A stretch of 48,933 nt of DNA. Origin: an uncultured Verrucomicrobiota bacterium. GTDB lineage: Bacteria > Verrucomicrobiota > Verrucomicrobiia > Opitutales > Seribacteraceae. A program made the position numbers and the translations under genes. The stretch spans positions 1 to 48,933 of the forward strand of contig CACMZN010000012.1 of assembly GCA_902618175.1 (NCBI GenBank), read 5' to 3'. The number at the start of each line of letters is the position of its first letter. Position 1 is the stretch's first letter. The notes below the pieces were generated by a model. The model saw nothing but the letters and a program-made list of their open reading frames with translations, was not told where the DNA came from and did no database searches. Positions 20,856 to 43,030 of this stretch are shown here, one piece after another.

Positions 20856-21956
20856 ATGGTCCGAAATTACATAGTCAGTCACAAAGAATTTTGCGAATAC
20901 GAAAGTGATTACTCCAGTGTAATTTGGGTGGGACCGATTGGCGGAACAAAGCTAACAAATGACAGAGGTTTAGGCTCGATATGGCAAAAAAACCCCAGTT
21001 ATTGCGAATTAACTGCATTACACAAGATATGGCAAAAAAGATCCAAACATGATTCGCAGATTGGTTTTTCTCATTATCGCAGACAACTTCTTCTGAAAAA
21101 AATTTCGAATGAAGAAAGGCTGATCGGGCATTACACCAAAACATCGATAATTCCAGTGGATAAGATTAAAGAAGCTGGGTTTTTTGATCTAGGTGTCGAG
21201 GAGTTGGAAAATCTAAGAAATTTTGACGTCGTACTTCCATACGAAGAAAATATCCAGTCATCTGTGCGGGATCACTATCTTAGCAAGCACGGTTCTGAAA
21301 GTTGGGATTTAATGATTCGTGTGCTTGAAAAAAAAGGTGAACTTGAAGCAATTGAACGATTAGTTGACGAACAAAATCAAAGTGCTCGCTGGGGAAATAT
21401 ATTTATACTCAAGGGCAGTATTTTGGAGGAATTGTGTGAATGGCTATTTTCAATCATTGAGGAAATTGAGCGTGAGGCAAATAGGATTTCCGGGTTTGAT
21501 GATTTACGAATCTTCGGTTTTCTTGCAGAAAGAATGACATCTGTGTATTTTAAGATTTTGGTTCCGGAGAGGGGACTCAAATTGCTGGAGAGACCAACGC
21601 TGCTGATCGATTATGAAAACCAAGAATTATGGAACCGCATTAATGCTATGGGCTCAAATGAACAATTTTGGATTTGGGGTGCGGGTGCATTTGGAGAAAA
21701 GTTTTTAAATGGTTTGAAGTTGATGGGGTTTGAAAGCCGGGTATCGGGCTTCATTGATTCAAAGGCATACAAAAGCACTGAATCATTCCTTTCTCTTAAA
21801 GTTTTAACCAAGGAATGTTTTTTTGATACCAAAATGCAATTGAAAGAAACTTTTGTTGTGGTGGCGTCTTCGGGATGGACGCAGATTGCAGAAGAACTGA
21901 AACTTCGTGGTCTGGTGTATTCGAGAGACTTTTATTGCCTCCAAGGACTATCATGA
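20856..21956 (+). CDS. DUF4422-type glycosyltransferase with C-terminal Rossmann-like module
   Basis: The first 255 residues match the DUF4422 family found in capsule and O-antigen loci and thought to be glycosyltransferases: YIVSHKEFCEYES, LGSIWQKNPSYCELTALHKI, and IGFSHYRRQLLL. The C-terminal segment from about residue 268 is separate: FWIWGAGAFGEKFLNGL, then GFIDSKAYKS, a PglD-N or CoA-binding-like Rossmann module. Related modules sit on four other enzymes in this locus. It is the first of two plus-strand genes, and its TGA overlaps the ATG of the next glycosyltransferase (ATGA). Donor and acceptor are unknown. Domain boundaries are estimated by eye. Confidence 0.82.
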   Translation: MVRNYIVSHKEFCEYESDYSSVIWVGPIGGTKLTNDRGLGSIWQKNPSYCELTALHKIWQKRSKHDSQIGFSHYRRQLLLKKISNEERLIGHYTKTSIIPVDKIKEAGFFDLGVEELENLRNFDVVLPYEENIQSSVRDHYLSKHGSESWDLMIRVLEKKGELEAIERLVDEQNQSARWGNIFILKGSILEELCEWLFSIIEEIEREANRISGFDDLRIFGFLAERMTSVYFKILVPERGLKLLERPTLLIDYENQELWNRINAMGSNEQFWIWGAGAFGEKFLNGLKLMGFESRVSGFIDSKAYKSTESFLSLKVLTKECFFDTKMQLKETFVVVASSGWTQIAEELKLRGLVYSRDFYCLQGLS

Positions 21957-23068
21957 AAATCCTTCATGCAACAACCTTTGTAAATGGTGGGGCAGGAAAC
22001 GTATTGGTTGATTTGGCAATGCTTCAAATGGAGGCAGGTCATGAAATTCGAATTGTGGCAAACAAAACAGAGTTTGATGAATACAGGCACTACCAAGAGC
22101 CCATTCAAAGATTACAACGAGCTGGAATACAACTTGAGACTTTCGACTCCCTCTTCAAGAGAGATACGGCTCTTAATCGTAACGCCGCAATGGATTTGCG
22201 GGCACATTTTTCGACCTTTTCCCCATTCGACGTGGTTCATGCTCATGCATCTGTTCCAGCGAAAGTTTGCAAGAAAGCTTTTATTCAATCTCAAGGAAGA
22301 CCACTCTTTATTCAAACCATGCACGGTTGGGGATTGAACAAAAACCAGCGCATGGAGAAGGACGATGTAAATACAATGAATACCTTGAATGGAGTAGCAA
22401 CATTAAATGAAAGTGGAAAAAAGTTGCTAATATCGAAAGGAGTTTCGAATTCGCGTTTGCATGTCATTCCCAATGGGATTTCCACAAAATTATCTACAAG
22501 TACTTTATTAAGCTCAAGTCTAAGCAGGTTTCTAGCAAGTCAAGATTGGGTCTTAAAGTTTTTGTGTATTGGAGAAATAGGAGTCAGGAAAAACCAAATT
22601 TTTCTAATGAATGCAATCCGGCATCTAAACGAAATTGGAATAAGATGTTGTGCAGTTTTTATTGGTCCCGAGCAGTGTGAAGGCTATTTTCAGGAGTGTG
22701 TAAATAAAAGTGCAACTGCAAAAATGACTTTTTGGACTGGCGAGATTAAGAACGCATCTTCACATCTTCAACACTTTGATGCAATGGTGCTACCAAGCAA
22801 GTCTGAAGGGATGCCTTTATCGATCTTAGAAGCCTTTCGGGCCAAGAAATTGGTGTTTGGTTCTAGGATTTCTGAAATAGAAGAACTAATAGGAAAACGA
22901 AGGGGAATCCTTTTTGGAATCGAATCTACGAGGGAGTTTGTCAAAAGCGTTGTTAATTTTGATACAAATGACGCACAAAAAATTACAGAAAATGCACACG
23001 ACTTTTTTCACAAGCAATTTTCTTTGGAGAGCATGTTTAAAGCCTATCTAAAGCTTTACCAAAGATGA
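21953..23068 (+). CDS. GT4-family glycosyltransferase
   Basis: A 371-residue GT-B glycosyltransferase of the RfaB/WecF-like GT4 class, acting at the cytoplasmic face of the membrane. The N-terminus ILHATTFVNGGAGNVLVDLA carries the glycine-rich acceptor-side loop, and VHAHASVPAKVCKKAF follows. The C-terminal domain has LHVIPNGIS, the donor-site region FDAMVLPSKSEGMPLSILEA with the E-x7-E pair, and a following FRAKKLVFGS. I chose ATG 21953 because it overlaps the upstream stop in an ATGA and begins the Rossmann strand directly; a longer in-frame start at 21875 lies inside the previous gene. It ends 5 bases before the convergent DUF115 gene stop. Sugar specificity is unknown. Confidence 0.88.
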   Translation: MKILHATTFVNGGAGNVLVDLAMLQMEAGHEIRIVANKTEFDEYRHYQEPIQRLQRAGIQLETFDSLFKRDTALNRNAAMDLRAHFSTFSPFDVVHAHASVPAKVCKKAFIQSQGRPLFIQTMHGWGLNKNQRMEKDDVNTMNTLNGVATLNESGKKLLISKGVSNSRLHVIPNGISTKLSTSTLLSSSLSRFLASQDWVLKFLCIGEIGVRKNQIFLMNAIRHLNEIGIRCCAVFIGPEQCEGYFQECVNKSATAKMTFWTGEIKNASSHLQHFDAMVLPSKSEGMPLSILEAFRAKKLVFGSRISEIEELIGKRRGILFGIESTREFVKSVVNFDTNDAQKITENAHDFFHKQFSLESMFKAYLKLYQR

Positions 23069-23073
23069 AGAAT

Positions 23074-24078
23074 TTATGTCTGGTTGAGAACCTTTTCAAG
23101 AGGAGTCCTGTCAAACACCTCAAGTTCACCACCTCTTGTAGAATTTATGATATTAATGCCCATATTTTTAGCAAATTCTTTTAACATCACATATTGGGAT
23201 CCTGAAATGTTCATTTTAGGAACATTCCATTTTTCACCTATTGGTCGATAATCTTTGTGAAAATGATTCTTTTCACCTTTTCCAATTAAAACATTTTTAT
23301 TTGAAATATTCTCGCCGCTCCACTCGAAATTAAAATCCACGCCCAGAAGGTGAATTTGAGAATATCCCATAAAAATGGCAGCTTGGATTGCAGTACAGGT
23401 TACGGATGAACCCCATCCAAAGTCAGTAGGTTCATGGGTTGGCAGAGTTGCCACTTCATTGTTAGAATCCGGTAAATTTAGTCCGAAAAGCAAAACTTCT
23501 TCGGATAACTTCAAGGTCCTAAGCAAATGCTCAGGATAGAATTTGTGAAAACCAATAAGTGAGTCTATTTTCTCTGCATTGTTTTCTGCAACCAAAGTAT
23601 CTTCAACCATGTAGTAGGTAGGTCGAAAATTACTTTCTTCGAAGATCAGATAAATTTTGTTGAAAGCAAAGCTATCTTCTTTCTTTTCGTGAAGCAGACA
23701 CAAATCATCCTCGGTTAAACTTGGACCATTTCCGATAATGAAAACTCGATTTTTTTTTCTAGCAGTTTTCAGTCTCGTCCACTTTTCCAAATTTTTTTGG
23801 GACCAAAGAGGGGTGGACATGATGCTTTTCTCAGGTATGCCAAGCTCGAGAATCTGTTCACGGATTCTAGTTGTATTGGAAAGTGAGCATATTTTCAGAA
23901 GGTCAAAATTATAATTGGAAATTTCTTGTGGTTTCGAAACTTTGAACCCGTGCTTTTCTTTGCCGTGCAAGGCAGGATTATTATCAAAAATACAAACGAT
24001 TTCGTATTCCTCTTTAAGCTTCTGAATCTCTTTTGAAAAATCGCTTCCGCAACCGAATACAGCTATTTTCAGGGGCAC
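23074..24078 (-). CDS. DUF115 (MptE-like/Maf-related) protein with N-terminal Rossmann-like module
   Basis: The central and C-terminal part resembles DUF115 proteins, a family that includes flagellin-glycosylating Maf proteins and pterin diphosphokinase-like enzymes: VFIIGNGPSLTEDDLCLLHE, FAFNKIYLIFEES, RPTYYMVEDTLVA, GWGSSVTCTAIQAAIFMGY and IHLLGVDFNFEW. The N-terminal 90 residues (KIAVFGCGSDFSKE, then CIFDNNPALHGKE) form a Rossmann-like module of the kind seen on four neighbours. I favour GTG 24078, just after the stop of the SIS gene; a TTG at 24120 would overlap that gene by 35 bases. It ends the long minus-strand operon. A second DUF115 gene at 32478-33200 lacks the module. Confidence 0.8.
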   Translation of the reverse strand: MPLKIAVFGCGSDFSKEIQKLKEEYEIVCIFDNNPALHGKEKHGFKVSKPQEISNYNFDLLKICSLSNTTRIREQILELGIPEKSIMSTPLWSQKNLEKWTRLKTARKKNRVFIIGNGPSLTEDDLCLLHEKKEDSFAFNKIYLIFEESNFRPTYYMVEDTLVAENNAEKIDSLIGFHKFYPEHLLRTLKLSEEVLLFGLNLPDSNNEVATLPTHEPTDFGWGSSVTCTAIQAAIFMGYSQIHLLGVDFNFEWSGENISNKNVLIGKGEKNHFHKDYRPIGEKWNVPKMNISGSQYVMLKEFAKNMGINIINSTRGGELEVFDRTPLEKVLNQT

Positions 24079-24085
24079 AATTTCT

Positions 24086-24655
24086 TTAATTTTCCGTAAC
24101 TGAGTACTCTCGCTTGCCAATTATTAGGTCGCAAAGAGCCACTAGCCAAAGCATATGTACTGTTTCTACGGTATTGTAGGATTTACTGTCAGCCCAAAGG
24201 TTTATGTCACCTAATTGTTTAAGAGGATTGTTTTGCTCGAAACCGCTGAGGGTAATCACTTGCAATCCAGCTTTTTTGGCGTGATTCGCACCGTTAATTA
24301 AATTCATGGATGTCCCGCTAGAGCTAATCAAAAAAGTGACGTCACCGAGGTCGGCATGATGCTCAAGAGCTTTTGAAACCCAGTGCTCGTAACCGTAGTC
24401 ATTTCCATAAGCGGTGAGAATAGCCGAATCGTTAAAGCTAATGGCTCGAATTCCCGCTTGTTTTGTAAAATCAAGGGCACAATGACTTGCGATCGTTGCG
24501 CTGGCTCCGTTGCCTGCAAAGATAACTTTGTTTCCTTTAGAACTCGCCCTCCTCAAAATCTTACTTAATTCGAAGAGTAAAGGTTCTATCGAGTTATCGA
24601 AGGCAACTCTCTTGAAGTGATCAAAGTAATCGGTAATGAAATTCTTTTTTTCCAT
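24086..24655 (-). CDS. SIS-domain sugar-phosphate isomerase, GmhA-like
   Basis: A 189-residue SIS-domain protein resembling sedoheptulose-7-phosphate isomerase (GmhA), which makes D-glycero-D-manno-heptose-7-phosphate. It has NKVIFAGNGASATIASHCAL and then FLISSSGTSMNLINGANHAK, the two phosphate-binding loops of this fold, and the AVSFND-like segment reads AISFNDSAILTAYGNDYGYE, close to GmhA. The C-terminal VETVHMLWLVALCDLI also fits. Together with the kinase/nucleotidyltransferase and GT9 genes upstream it suggests heptose metabolism, though other sugar phosphates cannot be excluded. It starts at ATG 24655, 5 bases after the oxidoreductase stop, and is followed closely by a DUF115 gene. Confidence 0.85.
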   Translation of the reverse strand: MEKKNFITDYFDHFKRVAFDNSIEPLLFELSKILRRASSKGNKVIFAGNGASATIASHCALDFTKQAGIRAISFNDSAILTAYGNDYGYEHWVSKALEHHADLGDVTFLISSSGTSMNLINGANHAKKAGLQVITLSGFEQNNPLKQLGDINLWADSKSYNTVETVHMLWLVALCDLIIGKREYSVTEN

Positions 24656-24660
24656 TGTAG

Positions 24661-25653
24661 TTATTTGTGTCTATAAATTTCGTCCATGATTTTCATTACC
24701 CTCAATGCATCATTTGAATTTCCCAGCTCAATCGGACTGCCTTCTTCAACTGCGTCTAAGAAATGCAGTACTTCAGAAGTCCAAGAGGTATCTAGATCGA
24801 AAATTTCTTGCACTTCACTTTCATAGGATGCGCTCGCCGAATGACTCTTGTTTATTTTTACGGTCAATTGTTCATCACCATAAGCACCTGAGCTTGTCTT
24901 AAGTCCGTTTAGTATGACAGAACCTCCCTCCAGAAAGACTTCCAAAGAGAAAATGTACCTCCATTGTGTCATAGTAGAATGAATAGAAGCACAAATGCCA
25001 GTCTTTTTGCTTCGCAAGTTGACGAAAACATTATCCTCAATCCCATCGGCCTTCCAATAAAGGTTTGAGACCATGGATTGAACTTCGTCGAAGCCACCGC
25101 TCAAGTATATCATCAAGTCCAACATGTGGATCCCTTGATCAAGCATAATGCCTCCACCCGCAAATTCGTGTTTCGCTCGCCAACCTTTGAAGAAATCCTC
25201 GTCAACCTCTTTTCCATATCGCCCCCTCATCCATAAGATTTTACCCATCTCCTTACTGTAAACGAGAGTTCTGATTTTTTTAATGCTTTCATGATGTCGA
25301 TGGTTAAAGCCATACATCAAGGTCATGCCGCTGCTTAGTTCGGCTTTTTGAATATCCTCGACTTCGGCAGCAGTGAATGCAGGGGGTTTTTCACAAAAAA
25401 CATGCTTTCCTTTGTTCAAAGCGAGCTTTGTCAATGGTTTGTTTAGATAATTCGGCGTACATACGAAAACCGCCTCAATTTGAGGATCATTAATCATTGT
25501 CTCCGGACTATCTGCGATAGCTATCTCATCTGACACAGATTTGGCAACGGACTTGTCGCATATGCATATAACTCGGCCTTTGTCGCTTGCATTAATGGCT
25601 TCGGCTCGAATTTGACCCATCTTACCGTATCCAATAATGCCTATGTTAATCAC
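24661..25653 (-). CDS. Gfo/Idh/MocA-family NAD(P)-dependent oxidoreductase
   Basis: A 330-residue oxidoreductase of the family that acts on sugars and sugar nucleotides. The N-terminus has the nucleotide-binding IGIIGYGKMGQIRAEAI, then AVFVCTPNYLNKPLTKLALN and the signature VFCEKPPAFTAAEVEDI (E-K-P). The C-terminal domain contains AGGGIMLDQGIHMLDLMIYL, with Asp and His placed as in the family's catalytic site. GTG at 25653 opens the protein exactly at the first strand, 9 bases after the preceding stop, and it is in the same reading frame as the three genes upstream. Its neighbours suggest a role in making or modifying a nucleotide sugar. The substrate is unknown. Confidence 0.9.
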   Translation of the reverse strand: MINIGIIGYGKMGQIRAEAINASDKGRVICICDKSVAKSVSDEIAIADSPETMINDPQIEAVFVCTPNYLNKPLTKLALNKGKHVFCEKPPAFTAAEVEDIQKAELSSGMTLMYGFNHRHHESIKKIRTLVYSKEMGKILWMRGRYGKEVDEDFFKGWRAKHEFAGGGIMLDQGIHMLDLMIYLSGGFDEVQSMVSNLYWKADGIEDNVFVNLRSKKTGICASIHSTMTQWRYIFSLEVFLEGGSVILNGLKTSSGAYGDEQLTVKINKSHSASASYESEVQEIFDLDTSWTSEVLHFLDAVEEGSPIELGNSNDALRVMKIMDEIYRHK

Positions 25654-25662
25654 TTGCGAATG

Positions 25663-26430
25663 TTATCTTTGATTTTTGAGCAAATCGAGAAAGTTACGAA
25701 AATCTTCAGCCGTAGCTTCAAGAAACTCTTGGCAATTGCTTGCAACATGAGGAGAAATTGAAATTCGCTCATTGGGCAAATCAAGCAACTTTCCTTTATA
25801 AGGTTCTTGCCAAAAAACATCTAAGGCTGCAAGCAATCTGCCCGATTCAAGTTCTTGGAAAAGATCTTCTTCGGACACCAATGCCGCTCGCGCGGTATTG
25901 ACCAAAGTAGTACCGTCTCTCATCCAACTCAGTTTTTCTGCATCAAACATATTTCTTGTTGATTCGGTAAGTGGTAGATGCAGAGTGATACATTCCGCAT
26001 GCTGAATCATTGCCTTCAGCTCACTCGGTTTGTTTGAGATAAGATCAAATGATGAGACCCGAACGAAATTTTTAAGCTTTTTCACCACTTTTGCTCCGAT
26101 GTTACCTCTGCCCACAACCAAGACTTGTTTGGTTGAAAGAGAGTTCCGTCCAATTTTTTTCCACGAGTCAAAGTCTCCGACATTCGAATAGAAGGATTTG
26201 AGCACAAGGTGGCATGCGAAATTTGCCGTCTCCTCGTGAATGATTGATGCGGTGGAAGGAGAGGGGAAACCGCAAGAAATTCCTAGTGATGCAGCTTGTT
26301 TCTCAGGAATATTATCCCGTCCGACTCCACACTTGAAGATACCCTTCAGTTTAGGAAATTCTAGTAGATTAATCGGTTTTCCACCAACTAGGAGCACATC
26401 TGCCTGATCGGGCAAAGAGTCAGTTGGCAA
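25663..26430 (-). CDS. D-isomer-specific 2-hydroxyacid dehydrogenase family protein, start uncertain
   Basis: The protein matches NAD-dependent D-2-hydroxyacid dehydrogenases: GIFKCGVGRDNIPEKQA, the NAD-binding LVVGRGNIGAKVVKKLKNF, the catalytic Arg in VNTARAALVSEEDL, Glu in ALDVFWQEP and His in ISISPHVASN. The first usable start, TTG at 26430, gives 255 residues and begins inside the usual first strand. The frame is open upstream to the TAG of the phosphatase gene (26509-26511), with KIHSLTSTLNRLIDDL lying upstream and looking like part of the same domain. No ATG or GTG occurs there; CTG 26442 and several ATT codons do. So the true start may be a rare codon upstream. Catalytic residues are intact; substrate unknown. 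Confidence 0.82.
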   Translation of the reverse strand: MPTDSLPDQADVLLVGGKPINLLEFPKLKGIFKCGVGRDNIPEKQAASLGISCGFPSPSTASIIHEETANFACHLVLKSFYSNVGDFDSWKKIGRNSLSTKQVLVVGRGNIGAKVVKKLKNFVRVSSFDLISNKPSELKAMIQHAECITLHLPLTESTRNMFDAEKLSWMRDGTTLVNTARAALVSEEDLFQELESGRLLAALDVFWQEPYKGKLLDLPNERISISPHVASNCQEFLEATAEDFRNFLDLLKNQR

Positions 26431-26508
26431 ATCATCAATCAGTCTATTTAAAGTAGAAGTTAAAGAATGAATTTTAATGATTAAAAGATTAAATAATTGT
26501 GGAGATAC

Positions 26509-27255
26509 CTAAGCGGTTGCTTTTACATTGAGCACAAAATTTTCAAAATCAGTAAATTTATGTTCGATCGATCCTCCAGCGGCTCTAACTATTGCTAACC
26601 CTGCGGCTACATCCCATAAGCGTATAGATTCTTCTTCATAAATATCAAACTTACCTGATGCAACATATGCTAAGGACAAAGCTGCTGATCCAATCATTCT
26701 TACTTTTTTGTATTTTTTAACTTTTTCGAAAAAACGATCTTTGGCTTTTGAATCTAAATCCATGGCTAGTGGGAAACCGGTGGAATACACAGCTTGATCT
26801 GTATCAATAATTGGGGATGTTTTTAACTGTTTTCCATCGAACGATGCATACATACTCCTTGTATCACCACTAAACATCTCATTTGTGTGAAAGTTAAATA
26901 CTACTCCGATTAAAGGGTTCATTTCATTCCATATTCCAATAGAAACACAGCAGCTTGGGTTACCTTTAAAATAATTAACGGTACCGTCCAAAGGATCAAT
27001 CACCCAAAATGATTTTGCTAAAAGATCAGTCCCTTCTGTGCCAAATTCTTCTCCAAGAACCGGCAAAGATGAGTTTTTTGCTAGTTCGTTACGAATTAGT
27101 TTCTCAACTGTGCTATCAACCCTAAGTTTTAAATCATGTTTTTCATTTGAATCTACCAGCAAGAGAGTCGCATATCTCTTTTTGAGCAGATCACCTGCCA
27201 TGCTTGCAACATGTTTTGCTAAGCCTAACAATTCTTCAGTTTTCAAATCGCTCAA
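26509..27255 (-). CDS. Inositol-monophosphatase-family sugar or nucleotide phosphatase
   Basis: A 248-residue Mg/Li-sensitive phosphatase-family member; relatives act on inositol phosphate, 3'-phosphoadenosine phosphate, histidinol phosphate or fructose bisphosphate. Motifs are LPVLGEEFG (metal-binding Glu), FWVIDPLDGTVNYFKGNP (D87-P-L-D90-G-T) and IRLWDVAAGLAIVRAAGG near residue 215. The start is TTG 27255, or an ATT a few codons earlier; no ATG precedes the domain. It follows the CMP-sugar synthetase gene in the same frame, separated only by its TGA and three codons. In this locus it could remove the 7-phosphate of a heptose bisphosphate, a job done by the unrelated GmhB elsewhere; this is an inference. 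Confidence 0.88.
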   Translation of the reverse strand: MSDLKTEELLGLAKHVASMAGDLLKKRYATLLLVDSNEKHDLKLRVDSTVEKLIRNELAKNSSLPVLGEEFGTEGTDLLAKSFWVIDPLDGTVNYFKGNPSCCVSIGIWNEMNPLIGVVFNFHTNEMFSGDTRSMYASFDGKQLKTSPIIDTDQAVYSTGFPLAMDLDSKAKDRFFEKVKKYKKVRMIGSAALSLAYVASGKFDIYEEESIRLWDVAAGLAIVRAAGGSIEHKFTDFENFVLNVKATA

Positions 27256-27264
27256 ATAAATAAA

Positions 27265-27936
27265 TCATTGAATTAGAGGTAGTAATGCTTCTGCAATAGA
27301 TAAATCCTCCTCATTTTTAATAACATGACCAGCTAAATGATTAACCTCAAAATAACCAATTTTTCCTGCATAAGTAGAGCACTTACCCTCTTGAGATGCT
27401 TCAAGAAAGGTTGATCTTCTCCAGCCAGAAATGCTCCATATTATTCTTTGAACTGGCTTAAGAAGTTGAGAGTTTGTTTTTTCCTTAAAAGTGAAGTTTA
27501 TTGGTTTATTTTGAAAGGCACACTCGATTTGTTCGCTAGTAAAACTAAGTAAAACATCATCACTGGAACTTTTGAATGTTTCCACAAATTCAGAAATTTC
27601 ACTTACAGTTAAAAGAGGTGCAATGCTGTGAACTTGGACAAGTAAGTCACATGGACGAAGTTTCAAAAATTCTTCAATATAATCTTCACTGGTTGCATTG
27701 TTGTTACCTAATTTAGCCGGGCGTTTATGAAAATTTACATCGTTTTGTTCCGCATATTTTTTGAAAGTAATATCTTCGGAATTAACCCATATTTCATCAA
27801 AAACTTTAGCTTTTTTACATTTTTCTACAGCTCTCTCGATTAATGTAACTCCGTGTAACCTTCTTAGGTTCTTTTTGTGCAGGCGTTGACTGCCTATTCG
27901 GACGGGGATCATCCCAATACATTTAGAAATTTTCAA
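27265..27936 (-). CDS. CMP-sugar synthetase (NeuA-like acylneuraminate cytidylyltransferase family)
   Basis: Enzymes of this family transfer CMP to 2-keto sugar acids such as sialic, legionaminic or pseudaminic acid. The 223-residue protein has the nucleotide loop MIPVRIGSQRLHKKNLRRLH, a variant of IPARGGSKRIPKKN, then DEIWVNSEDITFKKYA and LLVQVHSIAPLLTVSEISEF. The usual P-T-S-P reads S-I-A-P, and the loop lacks the second Gly (R-I-G-S in place of R-G-G-S). TTG 27936 is the likely start; ATG at the internal MIPVR would remove the first strand. No nonulosonate synthase (NeuB) is in the window, so the acceptor sugar is open. It heads a same-frame run of four genes. Confidence 0.82.
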   Translation of the reverse strand: MKISKCIGMIPVRIGSQRLHKKNLRRLHGVTLIERAVEKCKKAKVFDEIWVNSEDITFKKYAEQNDVNFHKRPAKLGNNNATSEDYIEEFLKLRPCDLLVQVHSIAPLLTVSEISEFVETFKSSSDDVLLSFTSEQIECAFQNKPINFTFKEKTNSQLLKPVQRIIWSISGWRRSTFLEASQEGKCSTYAGKIGYFEVNHLAGHVIKNEEDLSIAEALLPLIQ

Positions 27937-27990
27937 TTTAATACATCAACACTTCAGCATGAAATTGGTCTCTCAAATCATCACAATTTT

Positions 27991-28665: not shown

Positions 28666-28729
28666 ATCTTTTCAGCCAATTATTGAATTCTTGTATAGTA
28701 ATATGTATTTTAAACGAAAGTTCAGGCAA
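28631..28729 (-). pseudogene. Out-of-frame N-terminal segment of the 27991-28665 methyltransferase
   Basis: Read on the minus strand from TTG 28729, this frame gives FKIHITIQEFNNWLKRFDYE followed by NRF. It aligns with the paralogue segment IESINFPINLFNDFLVKVDY ending KKNY just before its GPP motif. The frame then hits TAA (28633-28631), while the +1 frame continues with PIYFKEYGPPN. Removing one T from the TTTT at 28645-28648 would restore one open frame. Confidence 0.6.
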
Positions 28730-28829: not shown

Positions 28830-30275
28830 TTACTGGGAAATTGCAGGATGGAAAGGGAATACAATCTTTTCTGAATCGACCCCTAAACCTCTAAGTTGAT
28901 GATACATCTCTAGGGGTTGACTACTTGCAAGCAGTATTTCGTCAAATTCTATACAAAAAATTTCTTCAGGAGCCCTAATGGGTTTACCAGCAAAAACGCT
29001 ATTTATTTTTCGAGGATCATTATCAATGGAACAAATTAATTCTTTCTGATCGATGTTATCATCGATGATTTTTTTTGCCGTCGGGCCAGTCCCAAAGATA
29101 ATAATTTTTTTGTCTTTTGCATCTACGGTCATTTCTAAGCCACCATTGGATTCTGTGAAACTTGTGTTTTCTTCAATTTGTTTTGGTTGTGTACTCGCTT
29201 CTGGGCGTATTCCAGTGCTTAGCCTCCAAGCAATAGGGTAATTTTTGGCTTTATTATTCAAATCTAGTATGTGAGGAACATTTTCGTTTCTTAGTATTCG
29301 TAGAAGATACCTAAGTACCGAGTCAGGTTCGATGAAATCCAGGCAAAGATTCTCATTATGATGACAGCGCCATTCGCAATCGTAGCAATCCATGCCATGA
29401 TGAATTACAAACTGATTATCTTTTTTCGGCCATGGGAAAAATCGATGAAAAGTTCCGCCTCCCAGAATGATTAATACTTTCGAAGCACAAAGAGATGCCG
29501 CATGCGCTAAGCCGGTGTCATTTGCAATTACGCAGGCTAACTTACTGAATTCACTAATTGTTTGCTCAAGATTCAGTTGCCCGACAAAAGATTTTATTGA
29601 TTTAACTTTCTCGCATAACCGGTTTGCAAAGGTTAAATCGTGCTTTGAGCCAAATAAAACTGGTTGTAAGCCTTCTTCTACTATTCCTTCGAGTAGATGT
29701 AACCAGTGGAGGTATGACCATCGTGAAGATGCTCCGCTCAGACATATTCCAATATGATTCTTTGATTCCGTTGAATGCCTTGAGGATGTGAGATCTCTAA
29801 TGTCAAGCCGAGGTGTAGAATCTAGGGAACAGGACAACGCATGCTGACAGAATATTTGTAAATATAGAATTTCTGGGATCAAAGACTCAGAACCCTGCAT
29901 GTGTTTCCAATCTTTGCTCGCATTTTGAGCCTCTTTATGAGTTAAATTTGTCGGGTATTGCCAACAGCAAAACTTTTTTTTTGCTGAGACATTATGCATG
30001 ATTTTTAAAACATTCTTCCGGATAAATCTTCTCGGAACAATCGCTATATCATACTGATTCTTTCCACTTATCTCATATATAGTTTCATCGTCAACATGGT
30101 CTCGTTCAGCGAAGAAGATTTTTCTAAGACCAGGAATTCGATTTGCGATAGAGTAATTTTCTTTTCTAGTTACTAAATCCACATTCCCATTAAATTTTGA
30201 TGCTATTGAGGTAAGTAAGCCCGAGAATAATACAATGTCTCCAATCCCATCGTTTTTAATTACGAGGCAACGCAT
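28830..30275 (-). CDS. GT9 (heptosyltransferase-family) glycosyltransferase with C-terminal Rossmann-like module
   Basis: The first 360 residues match GT9 ADP-heptose:LPS heptosyltransferases: LVIKNDGIGDIVLFSGLL at the N-terminus, IGICLSGASSRWSYLHWLHL at the donor domain start, and VIANDTGLAHAASLCASKVL with the D-x-G-x-x-H signature. A further 93 residues (from 389) are not part of GT9: KKIIIFGTGPTAKKIIDDN and SIDNDPRKI, a Rossmann-like module also seen on neighbouring enzymes. ATG 30275 is clear. Its presence with GmhA-like and heptose kinase/nucleotidyltransferase genes supports a heptose-containing glycan. The protein probably acts at the inner face of the inner membrane. Donor identity is inferred from family. 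Confidence 0.88.
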   Translation of the reverse strand: MRCLVIKNDGIGDIVLFSGLLTSIASKFNGNVDLVTRKENYSIANRIPGLRKIFFAERDHVDDETIYEISGKNQYDIAIVPRRFIRKNVLKIMHNVSAKKKFCCWQYPTNLTHKEAQNASKDWKHMQGSESLIPEILYLQIFCQHALSCSLDSTPRLDIRDLTSSRHSTESKNHIGICLSGASSRWSYLHWLHLLEGIVEEGLQPVLFGSKHDLTFANRLCEKVKSIKSFVGQLNLEQTISEFSKLACVIANDTGLAHAASLCASKVLIILGGGTFHRFFPWPKKDNQFVIHHGMDCYDCEWRCHHNENLCLDFIEPDSVLRYLLRILRNENVPHILDLNNKAKNYPIAWRLSTGIRPEASTQPKQIEENTSFTESNGGLEMTVDAKDKKIIIFGTGPTAKKIIDDNIDQKELICSIDNDPRKINSVFAGKPIRAPEEIFCIEFDEILLASSQPLEMYHQLRGLGVDSEKIVFPFHPAISQ

Positions 30276-30330
30276 CAGATAAGGTCGAACAGATTTATAT
30301 TAAGTCGTTTTCTTATATTGGAAAAGATGT

Positions 30331-31152
30331 TTAGATGATTGATTTTTCTAAAACAAATTCAAAACTATATTCGGCAACTGGAAAACTCTCGTGGATAACT
30401 TTTAAACCGCCAATTAATTCCACAGTGTTTTTTAGGTAGTTAAGACTGAACTCTTTGTGAACATGGTGTTTGTTTGGTTCATTTCCATTTACTGCACAGT
30501 GCTCCCTGTATGTTTTTTCATCTGGTAAGAAAAGCACCATTTTACCACCTGGTTTGAGTACACGCGACCATTCGCGAAGTACCTCCTCCGTATCAATAAA
30601 GTCTTCCAGTACATGCGATGAATAAACATAGTCAAGACAATCACCCGCAAACCAATGTAGGTTTGATCCATCACCATGAAGGTGTTGTGGGTGAGATTTG
30701 TAGTGTGCATAGGGATTATGCAAATCGACGCAAATTGCTGAAGGAACAATAGGGTCGCCCCCATATCCCACATCCAAACCATTGCCTTGGCAAAATCGAG
30801 CTAATGAAGATCGACACTTTGATGTTTCTGATTCCCTGGTTCCACTTTGATTGATAATCCTAACTTTCTCATGATCTTTCTGAGGAGGAGCCAATCGCAT
30901 GTACTTGGGAGAAATTCCAATTGACTTAAGCTGACCTACAATCTCGCTAGCATATTCACTCGCAATCACAATTTGGCTAAACGAAAAGTCCTTTAAAGTT
31001 TCTACCGAAATTATAGGAATACCTTGAATTCTGAGTCCATGTTTGTTTGGGTCGTTATCACAGAAAGCAACAATATTTTCTTCACAACCAATTTTGTTAA
31101 AATAATTTTTCCCTCCTTCGGAAGCTCCAAAAATTACAACTTCATTATTCAA
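30331..31152 (-). CDS. N-terminal Rossmann-like module fused to a class I methyltransferase
   Basis: Residues 1-95 form the locus's recurring module: EVVIFGASEGGKNYFNKIG, then AFCDNDPNKHGLRIQG. Residues 110-273 are a class I SAM-dependent methyltransferase: RFCQGNGLDVGYGGDP as the cofactor loop region, DYVYSSHVLEDFIDTEEVL, and WSRVLKPGGKMVLFLPDE, as in the Methyltransf_11 fold. The start is TTG 31152 (an ATT lies three codons earlier); no ATG is in frame. It follows the glycosyltransferase gene by four bases. It is probably a sugar or lipid-linked-oligosaccharide modifier. The role of the module is unknown; it might bind a sugar nucleotide or phosphosugar. Confidence 0.8.
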   Translation of the reverse strand: MNNEVVIFGASEGGKNYFNKIGCEENIVAFCDNDPNKHGLRIQGIPIISVETLKDFSFSQIVIASEYASEIVGQLKSIGISPKYMRLAPPQKDHEKVRIINQSGTRESETSKCRSSLARFCQGNGLDVGYGGDPIVPSAICVDLHNPYAHYKSHPQHLHGDGSNLHWFAGDCLDYVYSSHVLEDFIDTEEVLREWSRVLKPGGKMVLFLPDEKTYREHCAVNGNEPNKHHVHKEFSLNYLKNTVELIGGLKVIHESFPVAEYSFEFVLEKSII

Positions 31153-31156
31153 ACTA

Positions 31157-32488
31157 TTAATTTTTTTTGCTTTTTAGGCTAGATGGAAACTCGTATTTTT
31201 GCAAAGTCACACCAACTTTTGGAGATTCCCCGGGTGCAATGCAAACTTTGTCCCACTGTCCGTTGTATACAAATTCCAGATTCTCGTATCGACGAGTTGA
31301 ACAACTTTTCTTTTTTATGCTAACGGAGTCATCAAAGTCTATTCTAGCGAATGAATTTTGAGTGATTCTAGTCCCTGAAGAGTTATCCGGCTTGCATAAA
31401 TCTTGGTACCGTCTGAATGTATTTTCTTTTTCACGAAAAGGAAAGTGATGAATCGTTATTGCCCGTTGAGATTCAAGAATTTTTTCGGGGCAATTAGCGG
31501 TGTGGAAACCGCTTAATGCTCTGATTGGTGAGGCATTTCGGTCAAACCGATGCAATGGGTGTTTCCAATGATTGAGTGGGCAATGTTTTGCTTTCAACTC
31601 GTTGCAATCAAAAGGTTCTCCAAAAGGCATTAATTTGCCTGGATGGGTACGGGTTTTGTAACAAGGGAGCGAAGTGGGGAAGTGGTTCACAACTTTAGCT
31701 CCCACAACACGGACTTCTTCAGGGAGTTCAGCTAAAAATGCAGCAATTGTTTTATTATCTGGACCTCTTGGGAACTCGTCAGCATCCATCCATAGCCACC
31801 ATGTTTTATTGTTCTTGCTATCGAGTGACACTTTTTCCACCGCGTCATTCATGAGGCGAATCCTTAGCATTTCATAATACTTGTCGGTTTCATAATTCAC
31901 GAATAATTCCGCTCCTGCTTCAAGTGCTTCTTCCTTTGTTTTGTCCGTACTTTGGTTGTCGATGAGGAACACTTTTTGACAACCCTGGTCGAAAGCGTTG
32001 CGTACGCAGGCGTAGATTATATCGTCTTCGTTGCGGGTGCCGATAATTCCGTATAGGGGCACAGGGTGTTTGCTTGGTTTCACTGATGGGGCGGATGATA
32101 CTTGCACCCAAGCATCCGGAATTTGGGATTTATAGGCTTCCTTGAGATTTCCGAATGGTCCACAAGAATGCATATACATTCTTGGTTTTTTAAAGCCACA
32201 CTCAATAATGAGAGCGAGTCTTTGAGTGTCAATCTCATGCTTTCCACTTAAAATCAGGACGGTTTCCGATGAATGATCCACTTTATCCGTTAACACCGAT
32301 ATGATTGCGGAATCATCGCTTCCAGAGTAAGTAATGCATGGAACTTCGTACAATTGCGAGGTATCTGACTGTCCCGCAACGAGAAGATGCTGATTGCAAC
32401 CCAACAAGTTGAGCCCTCGCAGCAAATTGATTAAAGGCGCGTCAAAGGCAAAGACAATGGTTGTTGGCCGAACCACATTATCGAGCAT
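31157..32488 (-). CDS. GT2-like glycosyltransferase with an unrecognised N-terminal domain
   Basis: A 443-residue protein. From about residue 150 it is GT2-like (GT-A fold): PLYGIIGTRNEDDIIYACVR, KVFLIDNQSTDKTKEEALEA, and the D-x-D site in WWLWMDADEFPRG, followed by a His-rich segment. Residues 1-140 are a separate alpha/beta domain (TTIVFAFDAPLINLLRGLNL, then ETVLILSGKHEIDTQRLALI) that I do not recognise. ATG 32488 overlaps the stop of the DUF115 gene by 11 bases (ATGCTCGATAA), which supports this start; a longer in-frame start at 32743 lies entirely inside that gene. It is a glycosyltransferase of unknown linkage. Confidence 0.82.
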   Translation of the reverse strand: MLDNVVRPTTIVFAFDAPLINLLRGLNLLGCNQHLLVAGQSDTSQLYEVPCITYSGSDDSAIISVLTDKVDHSSETVLILSGKHEIDTQRLALIIECGFKKPRMYMHSCGPFGNLKEAYKSQIPDAWVQVSSAPSVKPSKHPVPLYGIIGTRNEDDIIYACVRNAFDQGCQKVFLIDNQSTDKTKEEALEAGAELFVNYETDKYYEMLRIRLMNDAVEKVSLDSKNNKTWWLWMDADEFPRGPDNKTIAAFLAELPEEVRVVGAKVVNHFPTSLPCYKTRTHPGKLMPFGEPFDCNELKAKHCPLNHWKHPLHRFDRNASPIRALSGFHTANCPEKILESQRAITIHHFPFREKENTFRRYQDLCKPDNSSGTRITQNSFARIDFDDSVSIKKKSCSTRRYENLEFVYNGQWDKVCIAPGESPKVGVTLQKYEFPSSLKSKKN

Positions 32489-33200
32489 GGGAGAACAACG
32501 ACCGAAAGTCGACTTTTGGGAAAACCTCAAGATGGGAATCTGGAGTTGCATTGAATATAACTTCGCCATGTTCTTTGTTCCACTTGGCGGCATATGCAAA
32601 TGCTTGGTCCGTTTTATCAAACCGGGGTAGGTTCCAAATTTGGCCTTTCGAACCATTGCAGTACTCGGAAGTGAAGTGATTTTGAGAATTATTAGAAACC
32701 CATTTTTTACCGCCCTCCACCAAATCCTCTTTTGGGATTTCATAATTATAGTCTACACCTATGAGATAAATAGGAGTGCAACCCATAACTAAAGCAAGTT
32801 GCAAGAGTACATATGCCATGCACCACCCATCAAATATCCTATCGGGTTGGGTTGATAACTGCGGAAACGGATCCGGAGAGTAGATTATATTTACAGGGTG
32901 ACAATTCTTGAGACGGCTCAAGTCGAAGTGATGGATAAGTTTCTCGGGTATAAACTTAACCATTTCATTTGGCAATTCTTGTGAAAACTCTTTGCCTGAT
33001 TGTTTAATCAGCGTTTCGTCAACGGTTGACCAATAGGTAAAGGGAAATCCCCAATCTTTGAAACCTAGGAAAACACGATTTGCTCCAAAGGTAATTTCGT
33101 TCCTTAAAAAACTCATATCCAATTTTTCCAAGGAAGGACCGTTGCCAACTACAAAAGCCCGATTACCCATTCGTGAATTATGAAAATCACTCAAAGACAT
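32478..33200 (-). CDS. DUF115 (MptE-like/Maf-related) protein, module-less paralogue
   Basis: A 240-residue DUF115-type protein. It shares with the gene at 23074-24078 the same order of motifs: FVVGNGPSLEKLDMSFLRNE, FGANRVFLGF, TYWSTVDETLI, and IYLIGVDYNYE. It lacks the N-terminal Rossmann-like module that the other copy has. The family includes glycosyltransferase-like Maf proteins and pterin diphosphokinases; I cannot tell which activity applies. The start is ATG 33200, 15 bases after the methyltransferase stop. It overlaps the downstream glycosyltransferase by 11 bases, so they are likely translated together and may act on the same acceptor. Confidence 0.8.
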   Translation of the reverse strand: MSLSDFHNSRMGNRAFVVGNGPSLEKLDMSFLRNEITFGANRVFLGFKDWGFPFTYWSTVDETLIKQSGKEFSQELPNEMVKFIPEKLIHHFDLSRLKNCHPVNIIYSPDPFPQLSTQPDRIFDGWCMAYVLLQLALVMGCTPIYLIGVDYNYEIPKEDLVEGGKKWVSNNSQNHFTSEYCNGSKGQIWNLPRFDKTDQAFAYAAKWNKEHGEVIFNATPDSHLEVFPKVDFRSLFSHAR

Positions 33201-33215
33201 TTTTTACACAATTCT

Positions 33216-35199: not shown

Positions 35200-35297
35200 T
35201 CTTACTACAACTTTACCAACTAAATATTGTTTGTTCACTCATAAAACTGACTAAATTTTTTTCAAATAAGCTTAAAAATTCTAAAAAGAAAAATTCC

Positions 35298-36572: not shown

Positions 36573-36697
36573 AAAAGAATGCTTTACTTAAAGAATGGAT
36601 AAAAATATGAATTGAATCTCTTCATTATTTAGGCATTCGAATTTTTGATAAAATGGAAGGATAGACTGTCTTTTGAGCATAAACAAAGTAATTCCAT

Positions 36698-37873: not shown

Positions 37874-37904
37874 TGTTTGATTGTATGAAATTAGATTTTC
37901 GTTT

Positions 37905-39341: not shown

Positions 39342-39358
39342 AGCAAATGATTTTTTTG

Positions 39359-41065
39359 TTAAGGAACCATATCACTCAAGTTTGAAGGCGAAAATTGATT
39401 TGGACCTTTCTGGATATATTTTTGAGAAAAAAGTGTCGTTTGATCTTCGGAAGTAATTACTTCGCAAACCAATGGTTCTTGGCATTCCATAACCTCTTCT
39501 ATGATTTCATCCAATAATGTGGGATCATCGATTAACTTATACCTTATCCCAAAAGCTAAAGTCGTCATCTTGATCGATGGATTAGATAAACCCCACTCTG
39601 GGTGGGTACCATAAAATCTGCTTTCCTGAAATGATTTTTGAGTATGCCTAATTGCAAGTTGCCCATTATTGTTTATCACAGAAACGATAACCGGTATATT
39701 TAAGGACCGAATGGTTTGGAGATCTTGAATATTCATAAAAAAACTGCAATCACCGATGATGCAGAAATATTTTTCAAACATGTTTGTTTTGAAAGCACCA
39801 ATCGTTTCAGCTAAACCAGTTCCCATCGACGATATGCCACTCAAACAAATGATTCTTTGATTGATTGATTTTATAATGGAACTTTGAAAACCTGCATACA
39901 ACGCAGTTCCACCTCCATCAACTACGAAACAGGACTTTTCAGGAGATCGATTAGTTAATCTTCTGTTCCATTCGTTGGAATCGATAAACCCATTGGATTC
40001 TATTTTACGCCAATTATCGCATTTGTATTGATGCTGATTCAAAGAATCAAACTTAGTCACATCGATTGAAAAATTTTCAAGTCTTTCAAAAAAACATCTT
40101 ATGTCAGAATGTATGATCAAGTCGAATCTAACATTCAAATTTTCAATCTGATCGCTGTCTATGTTAACCAATACTTTCTTGGCATTTGGCGCATAGTTAT
40201 CATAGAGCGTGGTTGTATGTGGAATTGAAAGGTGAGTTCCTAAGCATATCAATAAATCTGAGTCAAATACCGCCTTATTTGCCCCTTTTTGTCCTGACAT
40301 TCCAATGACGCCTAGATTGAACTCATGATAAGTTGGAAAAAGATCCATCGCAGTCCAAGTGGTCACGTAAGGTAACCGCTGTTTTTTTACAAACTGACGA
40401 ACCTCCTGTTCGCAACGACTTAAGTGTATGCCATTGCCTAAAACCAGCAGAGGTCTGCGGGCATTCTCAACAAGATTAAAGAATTTCTCGTAAGAATTCT
40501 CATCTGCATGGATAAAAGTCCTGTCTTTATCTTTCATAAAAGGTTGATAAGGAATTTCTGCCCATTGATGCTCAAGTGGTATATCGATCCAAACCGGTCC
40601 AGGTCTGCCGCTCTTGGCAATTTCCAATGCTTGAATAAATTTGGAATGAAAAAGCTCAGGCTCTTCAACATAATAAGTATGTTTGGAAATCGGTTTGACG
40701 ATGTCAACTATTGGAGATTCTTGCGTTCCAAATTGTCTTATTTTTTTTCCGTACGAAACATGGGCAGACCTCACTTGACCTGAAATAAAACAACATGGCA
40801 AGGAGTCTTGCCAGGCACCAAGAAGTGCTGTCAATGCATTGGTTGATCCAGGGCCGGTGGTAGTCACGCAACAACCAATCCCATTGAGACGGGCGTATGT
40901 GGAAGAGGCAAAGCCAGCAGTTTGTTCGTGTTGAGTGTAAGTGACATCGAAACCATGTTTTTCAAGAGAGTCAAAAATGTGCACGACCGCACCTCCTTGA
41001 AGTCCAAAGACACATCTGACTCCTGAATCCCATAATACCTTTGCCAAAACATCGGTGAATTTCAT
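39359..41065 (-). CDS. Thiamine-pyrophosphate-dependent enzyme of the acetolactate synthase-like family
   Basis: A 568-residue TPP enzyme. The N-terminal domain has GLQGGAVVHIFDSLEKHGFD and YTQHEQTAGFASSTYARLNG with the catalytic Glu47. The central domain follows, and the C-terminal TPP-binding site reads CIIGDCSFFMNIQDLQTIR with VSVINNNG, fitting G-D-x ... N-N. I chose ATG 41065, which leaves a 19-base gap after the SDR stop; upstream in-frame ATG 41131 would overlap the SDR. Acetolactate synthase is unlikely, since no regulatory subunit or branched-chain gene is nearby. YerE-type enzymes, which add a two-carbon branch to a deoxysugar, are a plausible model beside the SDR. The reaction is inferred. 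Confidence 0.88.
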   Translation of the reverse strand: MKFTDVLAKVLWDSGVRCVFGLQGGAVVHIFDSLEKHGFDVTYTQHEQTAGFASSTYARLNGIGCCVTTTGPGSTNALTALLGAWQDSLPCCFISGQVRSAHVSYGKKIRQFGTQESPIVDIVKPISKHTYYVEEPELFHSKFIQALEIAKSGRPGPVWIDIPLEHQWAEIPYQPFMKDKDRTFIHADENSYEKFFNLVENARRPLLVLGNGIHLSRCEQEVRQFVKKQRLPYVTTWTAMDLFPTYHEFNLGVIGMSGQKGANKAVFDSDLLICLGTHLSIPHTTTLYDNYAPNAKKVLVNIDSDQIENLNVRFDLIIHSDIRCFFERLENFSIDVTKFDSLNQHQYKCDNWRKIESNGFIDSNEWNRRLTNRSPEKSCFVVDGGGTALYAGFQSSIIKSINQRIICLSGISSMGTGLAETIGAFKTNMFEKYFCIIGDCSFFMNIQDLQTIRSLNIPVIVSVINNNGQLAIRHTQKSFQESRFYGTHPEWGLSNPSIKMTTLAFGIRYKLIDDPTLLDEIIEEVMECQEPLVCEVITSEDQTTLFSQKYIQKGPNQFSPSNLSDMVP

Positions 41066-41084
41066 GTAATCGAATTGACGATTT

Positions 41085-41879
41085 TTAATCCATGTAGTTG
41101 AAATACATGAAATGCTTGGATTGACCGGCATCTATTGGAATAATCGCTCCATGACAAAAGGAAGCAAGTTCTGAGCAATAAACTGCAACTATGGGTCCGA
41201 TTTCGTCAATGTGCCCGAACCTTCCCAGCGGACATCTTTCAGATAGGTACTTTTCTGCATGTTGAGGATTCGTCCTCAGAATCTCATCCCAGTGCCCACC
41301 TTTCGTAATCACTACACCTGGGAAAAGGGCGGTCATAACTACACCGGGAGCCTCAATGGCAAGAATTCTGCCCATTGATCTGGTGTAGGCGGACAAAGCT
41401 GCTTTAGTGGTGCTGAAAGTTACTGGGCCACTATTTTCTAAGCCGGCACAGGAAGTAATGTTCACTATTCTTCCCCAATTTTTAGTTTTCATTTTAGGAG
41501 CAAGATGATTTACCAATTGCACTGGCACTTCGAAATTCAACCTAAAGATTTTTCTCCAATCATCTAGAGAGCACCATGGGTCTTTAATATTTAAAGTATC
41601 GCCTGCATTGTTTATCAATATGTCTACATCAAGGTCGTAATTTCTAATTTGTTCGATCAACTTTTCAATGTCATCAACTCCTGTCAGCCCAGTGTTGATT
41701 GTGAAGAGAGAATCATTGAAGTTTTTCAGTTCTTCTCTCAACTCAGTCAATGCATTTTCAGAACGACTTGTCGAAATCACTTTTGCACCTTCGAGGAGAA
41801 GGTTTTCAGTAATAGAACGACCTATACCCCTTGCTCCACCAGTTACGAGGGCGACTTTATTATTAATTTTGAGATTCAT
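41085..41879 (-). CDS. Short-chain dehydrogenase/reductase-like protein with Phe in place of the catalytic Tyr
   Basis: A 264-residue classical SDR. The cofactor site is VALVTGGARGIGRSI, with VDILINNAG and LNFEVPV (Asn115) as usual. The active-site region reads IVNITSCAGLENSGPVTFST then TKAAL: Ser143 and Lys159 are kept, but the Y-x-x-x-K tyrosine is Phe155 (codon TTC checked). The C-terminus has GRFGHIDEIGPIVAVYCSEL, typical. With no tyrosine it may be inactive, use another residue, or bind a ligand. It begins at ATG 41879, two bases after the methyltransferase gene, and precedes the TPP enzyme, a YerE/YerF-like pairing. Confidence 0.85.
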   Translation of the reverse strand: MNLKINNKVALVTGGARGIGRSITENLLLEGAKVISTSRSENALTELREELKNFNDSLFTINTGLTGVDDIEKLIEQIRNYDLDVDILINNAGDTLNIKDPWCSLDDWRKIFRLNFEVPVQLVNHLAPKMKTKNWGRIVNITSCAGLENSGPVTFSTTKAALSAYTRSMGRILAIEAPGVVMTALFPGVVITKGGHWDEILRTNPQHAEKYLSERCPLGRFGHIDEIGPIVAVYCSELASFCHGAIIPIDAGQSKHFMYFNYMD

Positions 41880-41881
41880 TC

Positions 41882-43030
41882 TTATATGATGTTTAGCGGT
41901 AGAATCACATTTAATGCTTTTCTTTCTATTAACTTTATAAGAATTTTCCGGGTCGCTTCTTTGGTGCTTAATGCTGTTACAATTAAATTATTTTCACTAA
42001 ACTGTAACTCTTGTTCACCAATAATTTCTTTATCAAAGTTAATGTAGCATAAATTGTGTTTTTTTGAGTTAGAATCGATTATTGCAATACATTCTATGAG
42101 ATTAGGTAAATAATAATTAATGATGGGTAACATTAAGGAGGCACCGTAACAATAGAAGTTTCCGTCAAGCTTATTCAACAATTCATTTGATAAGGTCATG
42201 TTGTCCTTAAATAGTTTGTATCTTGAGTGAATATATTCTTCTGTAATTAAGTCGTGTTTTACAAAGGATTTTTTGCCACCTTTTTTTCCAATCTGAGTGA
42301 TAAGAGTACCGTAGTGGGACCGATCATATTGGTAGTCAACTATTTTAAAACCATGTCTGGCTAATAAAATGCTGAATGAATAAAGGGAGAAATAGTTAAT
42401 ATGCTGATGATGAACTTGATCAAATCTCCCATCGATTACGAGATATTCCAGTGATGGGAACTGGAAGAAGAATAAGTCTTCATTATTGGAAACCTCATCC
42501 AGCTTTTCAAAGAAAGTATCAACGCAATATATGTGTTCAAGTGTATGGCTGCATAAAAAAATATTATTTTTATTATCAGAGAAACTCTTCTCCAGGTCCT
42601 CAAAATAACAACTAATTATTTCTATTTCCGAAGAGTCGGATTTTATGTTTGGGTCAATTCCGGTTAAACTTCGTGGTTTATCTCCGCATTTTGAAATCTC
42701 ACTTAACAGAGAGGTATCGTTTGCGCCGATGTCAACAACGTCAGCATTTCCAAAGTTAGCTCTGTCTTGTACAAATTGTAGGAAATTTACCAGGGCAAGC
42801 ACTGAACCACTGCTTGAACTTGATACGGTGTTGTAATTATTATAGATAAAGTCTCGAGGCAAATGCCTACCCAGCAATGCATGCGAACAAGAATGGCAAT
42901 ATTCAAAAGATTGGTCCATGTATGCAAGGGTCTTTTTGTTTTCTCCGAATTTCTTGTATATTTCGGTAACGGGATACTGATCCAGATCTATTGTAAAGTT
43001 AGCGGGCTTTGAGCAAACAGGACAATTCAT
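41882..43030 (-). CDS. Zinc-type sugar C-methyltransferase
   Basis: A 382-residue protein matching deoxysugar C-methyltransferases (TylC3/NovU type). The N-terminus has a zinc-binding set: MNCPVCSKPANFTIDL, then FEYCHSCSHALLG (C-x2-C ... C-x2-C). The core is a class I methyltransferase (VVDIGANDTSLLSEISK), and from about residue 286 a Rossmann-like C-terminal domain follows (FYCYGASLMLPIINYY, IIDSNSKKHN). The family adds a methyl to C3 of a keto nucleotide sugar, giving branched sugars. The ATG at 43030 is two bases after the epimerase stop. The C-terminal domain resembles the recurring module, although in this family it is expected. Substrate unknown. Confidence 0.85.
   Translation of the reverse strand: MNCPVCSKPANFTIDLDQYPVTEIYKKFGENKKTLAYMDQSFEYCHSCSHALLGRHLPRDFIYNNYNTVSSSSSGSVLALVNFLQFVQDRANFGNADVVDIGANDTSLLSEISKCGDKPRSLTGIDPNIKSDSSEIEIISCYFEDLEKSFSDNKNNIFLCSHTLEHIYCVDTFFEKLDEVSNNEDLFFFQFPSLEYLVIDGRFDQVHHQHINYFSLYSFSILLARHGFKIVDYQYDRSHYGTLITQIGKKGGKKSFVKHDLITEEYIHSRYKLFKDNMTLSNELLNKLDGNFYCYGASLMLPIINYYLPNLIECIAIIDSNSKKHNLCYINFDKEIIGEQELQFSENNLIVTALSTKEATRKILIKLIERKALNVILPLNII

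Follow-up and report, generated by a model that had tools for sequence, protein, structure and literature searches.

In PglD-type enzymes, a small N-terminal Rossmann-type domain handles the sugar nucleotide. In Pcryo_0637, this domain is a platform for uridine diphosphate (UDP), where Asp40 and Ser11 contact the ribose and Asp41 contacts the uracil, and the equivalent residues in PglD are Ser13, Asp35, and Asp36 (PMC8040287). The cytoplasmic domain of WbaP is stabilized by uridine mono-, di-, and triphosphate (UMP, UDP, and UTP), WbaP is inhibited by UMP, and the domain holds most of the dimer contacts, formed by a β-hairpin swap; its authors called tempting the idea of several enzymes of a glycan pathway being regulated by such domains (PMC10942596). 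TcaB9-type C-methyltransferases carry a related C-terminal domain, and the titles of their structure entries name deoxythymidine diphosphate (dTDP) ligands.

Here, we analyze domains of this kind in a stretch of 48,933 nucleotides (the window), which is an entire contig (CACMZN010000012.1, C12 below) of an uncultured Verrucomicrobiota bacterium with a genome assembly of 2.03 Mb, 67% complete. The window contains a glycan locus, where segments of about 90 residues with a Gly loop following strand 1 and an Asp ending strand 2 are attached to five enzymes, namely, a DUF4422 protein (module A), a DUF115/MptE-like protein (B), a GT9 glycosyltransferase (C), a Methyltransf_11 protein (D), and a C-methyltransferase (E; Table 1).

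Homology of the five segments

The main profile, a hidden Markov model (HMM), was built from 26 modules that lie outside the window; 25 come from other genomes of the class, and one is from contig C31 of the same genome, where a sixth copy forms the C-terminus of a GT2 glycosyltransferase (E-value 2.4e-4 with the five-row profile of the window modules). Since the 26 modules were first retrieved with this five-row profile, they are a biased draw. Among the non-overlapping open reading frames (ORFs) of the window, the top five matches of the 26-module HMM are D, B, C, A, and E, in this order, with E-values from 6e-15 to 5e-4, the rank of E being marginal, nearly level with other Rossmann proteins. 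An earlier sequence-only reading of the window had noted Rossmann-like segments on these five enzymes and proposed their profile comparison as a check; this observation is confirmed, and the comparison supports both homology and a common fold.

Of 2000 shuffled segments, the best reached 8.9 bits. Small group-specific HMMs fail for some pairs: E scores 3.0 bits against five C-methyltransferase tails, and B and E score 7.2 and 8.9 bits, respectively, against five GT2 tails, all of them below the best shuffles. With an HMM of 19 C-methyltransferase tails, E left out, the top window ORFs are those of D (1.3e-7) and E (4.5e-5), followed by B (0.012) and C (0.041), and A has no match at E-value 1. 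Profile–profile comparisons of sets sharing no rows gave 98.1% (7e-14) for B, C, D, and L048 against A and the GT2 tails, 96.5% (7e-10) for E and the C-methyltransferase tails against B, C, D, and L048, and 88.7% (3e-6) for E and the C-methyltransferase tails against A and the GT2 tails, each E-value referring to a single comparison. The Gfo/Idh control profile, applied to two of these sets, B/C/D with L048 and the C-methyltransferase tails, gave 10% (E-value 0.003) and 0.1%, respectively, which for these sets speaks against plain Rossmann look-alikes as the source of the matches.

That the segments are unrelated folds or trivial family tails, an outcome named in the sequence-only reading as its refutation, we consider hardly tenable. 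Unrelated tails are ruled out for A–D by the 26-module HMM and the disjoint profile–profile comparisons, and module-free relatives of B, C, and D (see below) also speak against this explanation; it is partly true of E, whose tail belongs to the C-methyltransferase family. By VIA-align comparison with top Foldseek chains, E resembles TcaB9-type chains over the full length, the C-terminal Rossmann-like domain included. The structure model of D has a predicted template modeling score of 0.57 and a low-confidence linker, and its match list is dominated by the methyltransferase half. Thus, the five segments belong to one superfamily of small Rossmann-type nucleotide-pocket domains, the homology and the fold of D and E being computed. 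Its other members are the PglD N-terminal domain, the C-terminal domain of TcaB9-type C-methyltransferases, the cytoplasmic domain of CapD and WbaP, 3nkl, and the N-terminal domain of 2g6t.

This superfamily is already known piecemeal under several Pfam names, to which the window modules conform to different degrees. For PF08484 (Methyltransf_14, cut-off 23.5 bits), the D segment scores 25.3 bits and the whole protein 23.4, just under the cut-off, and this segment lies at the N-terminus of a Methyltransf_11 protein, not at the C-terminus as in TcaB9-type enzymes; no match was obtained for A, B, C, or E, for E despite its structural resemblance to TcaB9. PF22674 (C2185-like_N), presumably named for the protein in 2g6t, is passed by B (32.2 bits for the segment), C is below the cut-off at 13.9 bits, and A, D, and E have no match; unlike the module proteins, 2g6t carries another, uncharacterized remainder. 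The fold of PF13727 (CoA_binding_3, WbaP/CapD) is the same, but none of the five matches it at E-value 1 or below, or as segments at 10 or below, and all six CapD modules have Asp directly after the β2 Asp, where B–D have Asn. The PglD/NeuD N-terminal domain (PF17836, cut-off 23.4 bits) shares the pocket layout, a GAS or GxG loop and the β2 Asp; however, no module passes, B alone is listed (12.5 bits whole, 15.5 bits as a segment), and the window modules have no attached acyltransferase. The Ser and Asp–Asp contacts of PglD are not reproduced either: D has Ser, Asp, and then Asn, B and C have Asn, and A and E have Ser as the second residue.

Table 1. Modules and associated features of the window
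Feature	Position	Strand	Evidence
Module A, C-terminal on DUF4422 protein (20856-21953)	21639..21953, edges approximate	+	HMM of non-window modules E 1.2e-8; GT2-tail HMM 1.4e-8; tree
Module B, N-terminal on DUF115/MptE-like protein (23077-24120)	23788..24078	-	PF22674 C2185-like_N 28.5 bits (cut-off 27); HMM E 3.8e-14
Module C, C-terminal on GT9 protein (28833-30275)	28833..29117	-	HMM E 2.1e-9
Module D, N-terminal on Methyltransf_11 protein (30334-31152)	30859..31152	-	HMM E 6e-15
Module E, C-terminal on TcaB9-like C-methyltransferase (41885-43030), resident family tail	41885..42175, edges approximate	-	HMM E 5e-4
Sugar cassette beside modules: SIS isomerase, Gfo/Idh, 2-hydroxyacid dehydrogenase, inositol-phosphatase-like, cytidylyltransferase	24089..27936	-	Pfam; kept in G033
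Second DUF115/MptE-like protein, module-free	32481..33200	-	PF01973 at residues 3-154 of 240

Distribution of the module among enzymes and loci

Modules A–D are accessory domains on enzymes whose examined relatives mostly do without them. The three closest methyltransferases (61, 55, and 50% identity) align to the D protein only from residue 98-102 onwards. The closest GT9 relative among the matches listed, from genome G033 (39% identity, aligned residues 3-331), is module-free; none of the other non-own GT9 matches listed spans the module, and one of them extends to residue 406 across a stop. None of nine non-own DUF115 genes from 188 genomes covers the module residues, two matching the C-terminal part only, and five non-own DUF4422 matches stop by residue 249, as judged by the alignment end. 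Genome G033 has a syntenic cassette (58% identity for Gfo/Idh, 49% for the dehydrogenase, 55% for the cytidylyltransferase, 42% for the phosphatase, and 39% for SIS) that also contains the methyltransferase (61%), DUF115 (30%), and GT9 (36%) proteins, all three without the module. The second DUF115 protein of the window likewise lacks it, as the sequence-only reading had stated, since the PF01973 catalytic domain is at the very start of the protein.

Elsewhere, the module–DUF115 fusion occurs in three of the 79 top-ranked DUF115 loci with a name (Pelagicoccus, which is the best named relative of B, Gracilibacteraceae, and Lachnospiraceae) and twice in G229. The best match of D (44% over 88 residues) is the C-terminal module of a 553-residue protein of G418 (L247 5048-6706, - strand), whose window homolog (36701-37873, - strand, 24% identity) has no module seen; this protein family has no Pfam match. 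A tblastn search of plasmid and phage collections with module D (one search) retrieved no match in either at E-value 0.01. By contrast with A–D, all 19 extracted relatives of the C-methyltransferase have a similar tail (12 by module-HMM domain E-value below 0.01, seven by eye), hence E is a resident domain of TcaB9-type enzymes and shows no sign of mobility. The earlier suggestion that the module is mobile between enzymes is therefore upheld for A–D, given the module-free relatives and the module kinship crossing partner enzymes, and fails for E, a standard TcaB9-type tail; the four modules A–D were apparently acquired by domain swapping.

The module tree (61 short rows, 102 columns, many long branches) places A among C-terminal modules of GT2 proteins, near a long branch, E with the C-methyltransferase tails, and B, C, and D in an unresolved set. 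One clade of all five is rejected by the approximately unbiased test (p=0.004), and with it the idea that one module spread within the window, whereas the grouping of B, C, and D is not rejected (p=0.26). The CapD modules form one clade (100/99), and the C-methyltransferase and GT2 modules a few clades each, while the DUF115 modules require six changes for six rows (5.8 when shuffled), just one of which is required by starred branches. A clade with a starred branch (99/90) unites modules of sulfotransferase-like, GT4-like, and FkbM methyltransferase proteins and of an ORF cut by a contig end; the two source genomes belong to one family. The locus label changes 16 times on the tree, a bare count without a shuffled baseline. 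The best BLAST match has the same partner for 27 of 65 modules and comes from the same locus for five of 65; same-partner best matches account for 12 of 14 C-methyltransferase, six of six CapD, and six of 10 GT2 modules, and three of 35 in the remainder, where a different partner is forced for many modules because many labels occur once. Labels of CapD, PglD, and some sulfotransferases were assigned from protein length, a motif, or visual inspection; the GT4-like protein falls under the Pfam cut-offs, and a 150-residue G230 ORF, labeled solo in the tree, is cut by a contig end and left out of the solo counts. Thus, modules of C-methyltransferases, CapD, and most GT2 proteins track the partner enzyme, and the others seldom do.

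A search of 110 relatives with the D alignment revealed multi-module loci with recurring order in G230 (C25), G229 (C48), G251 (C48), G250 (C15), and G260 (C57), all five re-found by an HMM free of their modules. The G230 locus (L152 6538-7476, + strand) encodes a 313-residue protein of three tandem modules (E-values 3e-12, 8e-9, and 5e-14), in which no catalytic Pfam domain was found. Solo modules of 135-145 residues are encoded in G251 (L156 5987-6421), G272 (L158 5581-6015), and G418 (L247 14315-14719), all on the - strand; toward the C-terminus they are hydrophobic (mean hydropathy over the best 19 residues 2.15, 2.63, and 2.04, respectively, vs 1.12 for module D) and possibly membrane-tailed. 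In G418, absent from every profile that found it, about 39 kb contain six ORFs with a module, one a weak match (E-value 7e-4).

At 1e-4, matches occur in 152 of the 273 genomes surveyed in the order, mostly one or two per genome, many CapD-sized, and ten have at least three (own genome five, G229 four, G230 seven, G250 three, G251 five, G260 three, G272 four, G309 four, G406 three, G418 six). In seven of these ten (own, G229, G230, G250, G251, G260, G418), at least three of the matches listed are no more than 50 kb apart on a single contig. Rows of the survey profile (A10) come from the own genome (L011 too) and from G229, G230, G250, G251, G260, and G272, which are therefore not ranked independently; G309, G406, and G418 contributed no rows. 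The four G309 profile matches are spread over four contigs, and the inspected G406 ORFs are C-methyltransferase-like by eye. Across the phylum, 37 of 387 genomes match at 1e-8, and the four with at least three matches (own, G229, G230, G418) all belong to this order; the matching genomes of this draw do not include G250, G251, and G260.

Nucleotide pocket and possible roles

The Gly of the loop is conserved in 60 of 61 rows (the remaining row has no letters there), and the β2 Asp in 60 of 61. Our best guess is that the ligand would be of the nucleotide type, and it is plausible that the modules recognize a common nucleotide, phosphosugar, or scaffold. The reading we favor, at a probability of about 0.5, is an accessory sensor or tether of nucleotides or nucleotide sugars in A–D and a substrate-holding resident domain in E. 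The latter most likely helps to hold a nucleoside diphosphate (NDP)-sugar substrate, as in TcaB9, putatively for C-methylation of an NDP-keto-sugar. In A–D, a nucleotide or nucleotide sugar would be bound in the Gly-loop/β2-Asp pocket, and its binding may regulate or co-localize enzymes of one glycan pathway, similarly to the WbaP domain, which dimerizes and appears to sense UMP. The base in B–D may differ from uracil, with Asp–Asn replacing Asp–Asp; cytidine would fit the cytidylyltransferase of the cassette, which is a guess. At the level of sequence, sensing, co-localization, and substrate holding would look alike.

Several observations weigh against this reading. The residue after the β2 Asp, which contacts uracil in PglD-type enzymes, is Asn in 26 of 61 rows, including B, C, and D (Asp in six of six CapD modules), hence the PglD ligand is not simply transferable. 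B and C lack the third loop Gly, the E loop is GASLML, and in the G230 triple protein the Gly loop or the β2 Asp departs from the pattern in two of three units, so some modules may bind nothing. In the WbaP study (PMC10942596), UDP-Gal destabilized the isolated domain, and UMP may also compete at the active site. As for acquisition, the partner label is clearly clustered over the tree (29 changes vs a shuffled mean of 43.3, as low in none of 200 shufflings), and thus not every kind of module is prone to swapping; gains and losses were told apart by parsimony only, the close methyltransferase relatives are few (three), and the DUF4422 comparison relies on where the alignments end.

Of the competing explanations, it is possible, though on balance improbable, that the domains dock onto one another or onto a hub, gathering the enzymes, with tailed solo modules as membrane anchors and the triple protein as a scaffold. 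The hydrophobic solo modules, the three-module ORF without a catalytic domain, the dimer contacts of the WbaP relative, and the module-dense loci agree with such assembly, but neither the window nor, by profile, the own 67%-complete genome yielded a solo or triple-module protein, and the conserved loop Gly and β2 Asp indicate a ligand as well. We regard as doubtful the wider scheme of a plug-in system that would build glycans in the cytoplasm, where the transferases of a locus (glycosyl-, methyl-, sulfo-, and LicD-like) would exchange a swappable D-N-[DN] module and, with triple-module and membrane-tailed solo proteins as hubs, a shared nucleotide signal or docking surface would set the flux or place of the pathway. 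Each module could instead hold the sugar nucleotide of its own enzyme, a role known for PglD-type enzymes (PMC8040287), in line with the dTDP ligands in the TcaB9-type entry titles and suitable for E; this is unlikely overall, as the closest GT9 (among the matches listed), Methyltransf_11, and DUF115 relatives are module-free, the module occurs at either chain end, and the D linker is predicted at low confidence. A redox sensor of nicotinamide adenine dinucleotide (NAD(H)), like Rex, is suggested by weak profile similarity to Rex NAD domains (3e-7 with the first five-row profile, whose best solved match was Rex, and 3.3e-5 with the larger one) and by the GxG and β2-Asp pattern. It is very unlikely: the best match of the larger profile is 3nkl (1.9e-10), the loop differs in B, C, and E, which lack the third Gly, and neither a DNA-binding part nor a redox partner in the locus was seen.

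Neighboring genes and implications

The ORF of the second DUF115 protein (32478-33200) shares 266 bases with the ORF at 31157-32743, both on the - strand, and the first ~88 residues of the latter, larger one are probably not coding. Two other Methyltransf_11 proteins (27994-28665 and 33219-34148, - strand), paralog-like by eye, have no module. The C-methyltransferase is adjoined by a thiamine pyrophosphate enzyme and a short-chain dehydrogenase/reductase (39362-41879, - strand); the latter (41%) and the C-methyltransferase (29%) are likewise adjacent in G034. Two adjoining radical SAM/SPASM proteins (34090-36572, - strand) also lie within the glycan locus. The HldE-like protein (37908-39341, - strand) has the nucleotidyltransferase first and the PfkB kinase second, the reverse of the usual HldE domain order.

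Taken together, one subfamily occurs on many unrelated glycan enzymes, clustered in certain loci, with relationships crossing enzyme classes. The locus-wide spread and the catalysis-free versions look new: in titles, abstracts, and passages of open-access papers, PMC8040287, PMC10942596, and PMC12802240 among them, we found no account of module-dense glycan loci or module swapping. The module may serve as a plug-in sensor or tether, and loci like this one make the idea of multi-enzyme regulation put forward by the WbaP authors directly testable with isolated 90-residue modules.

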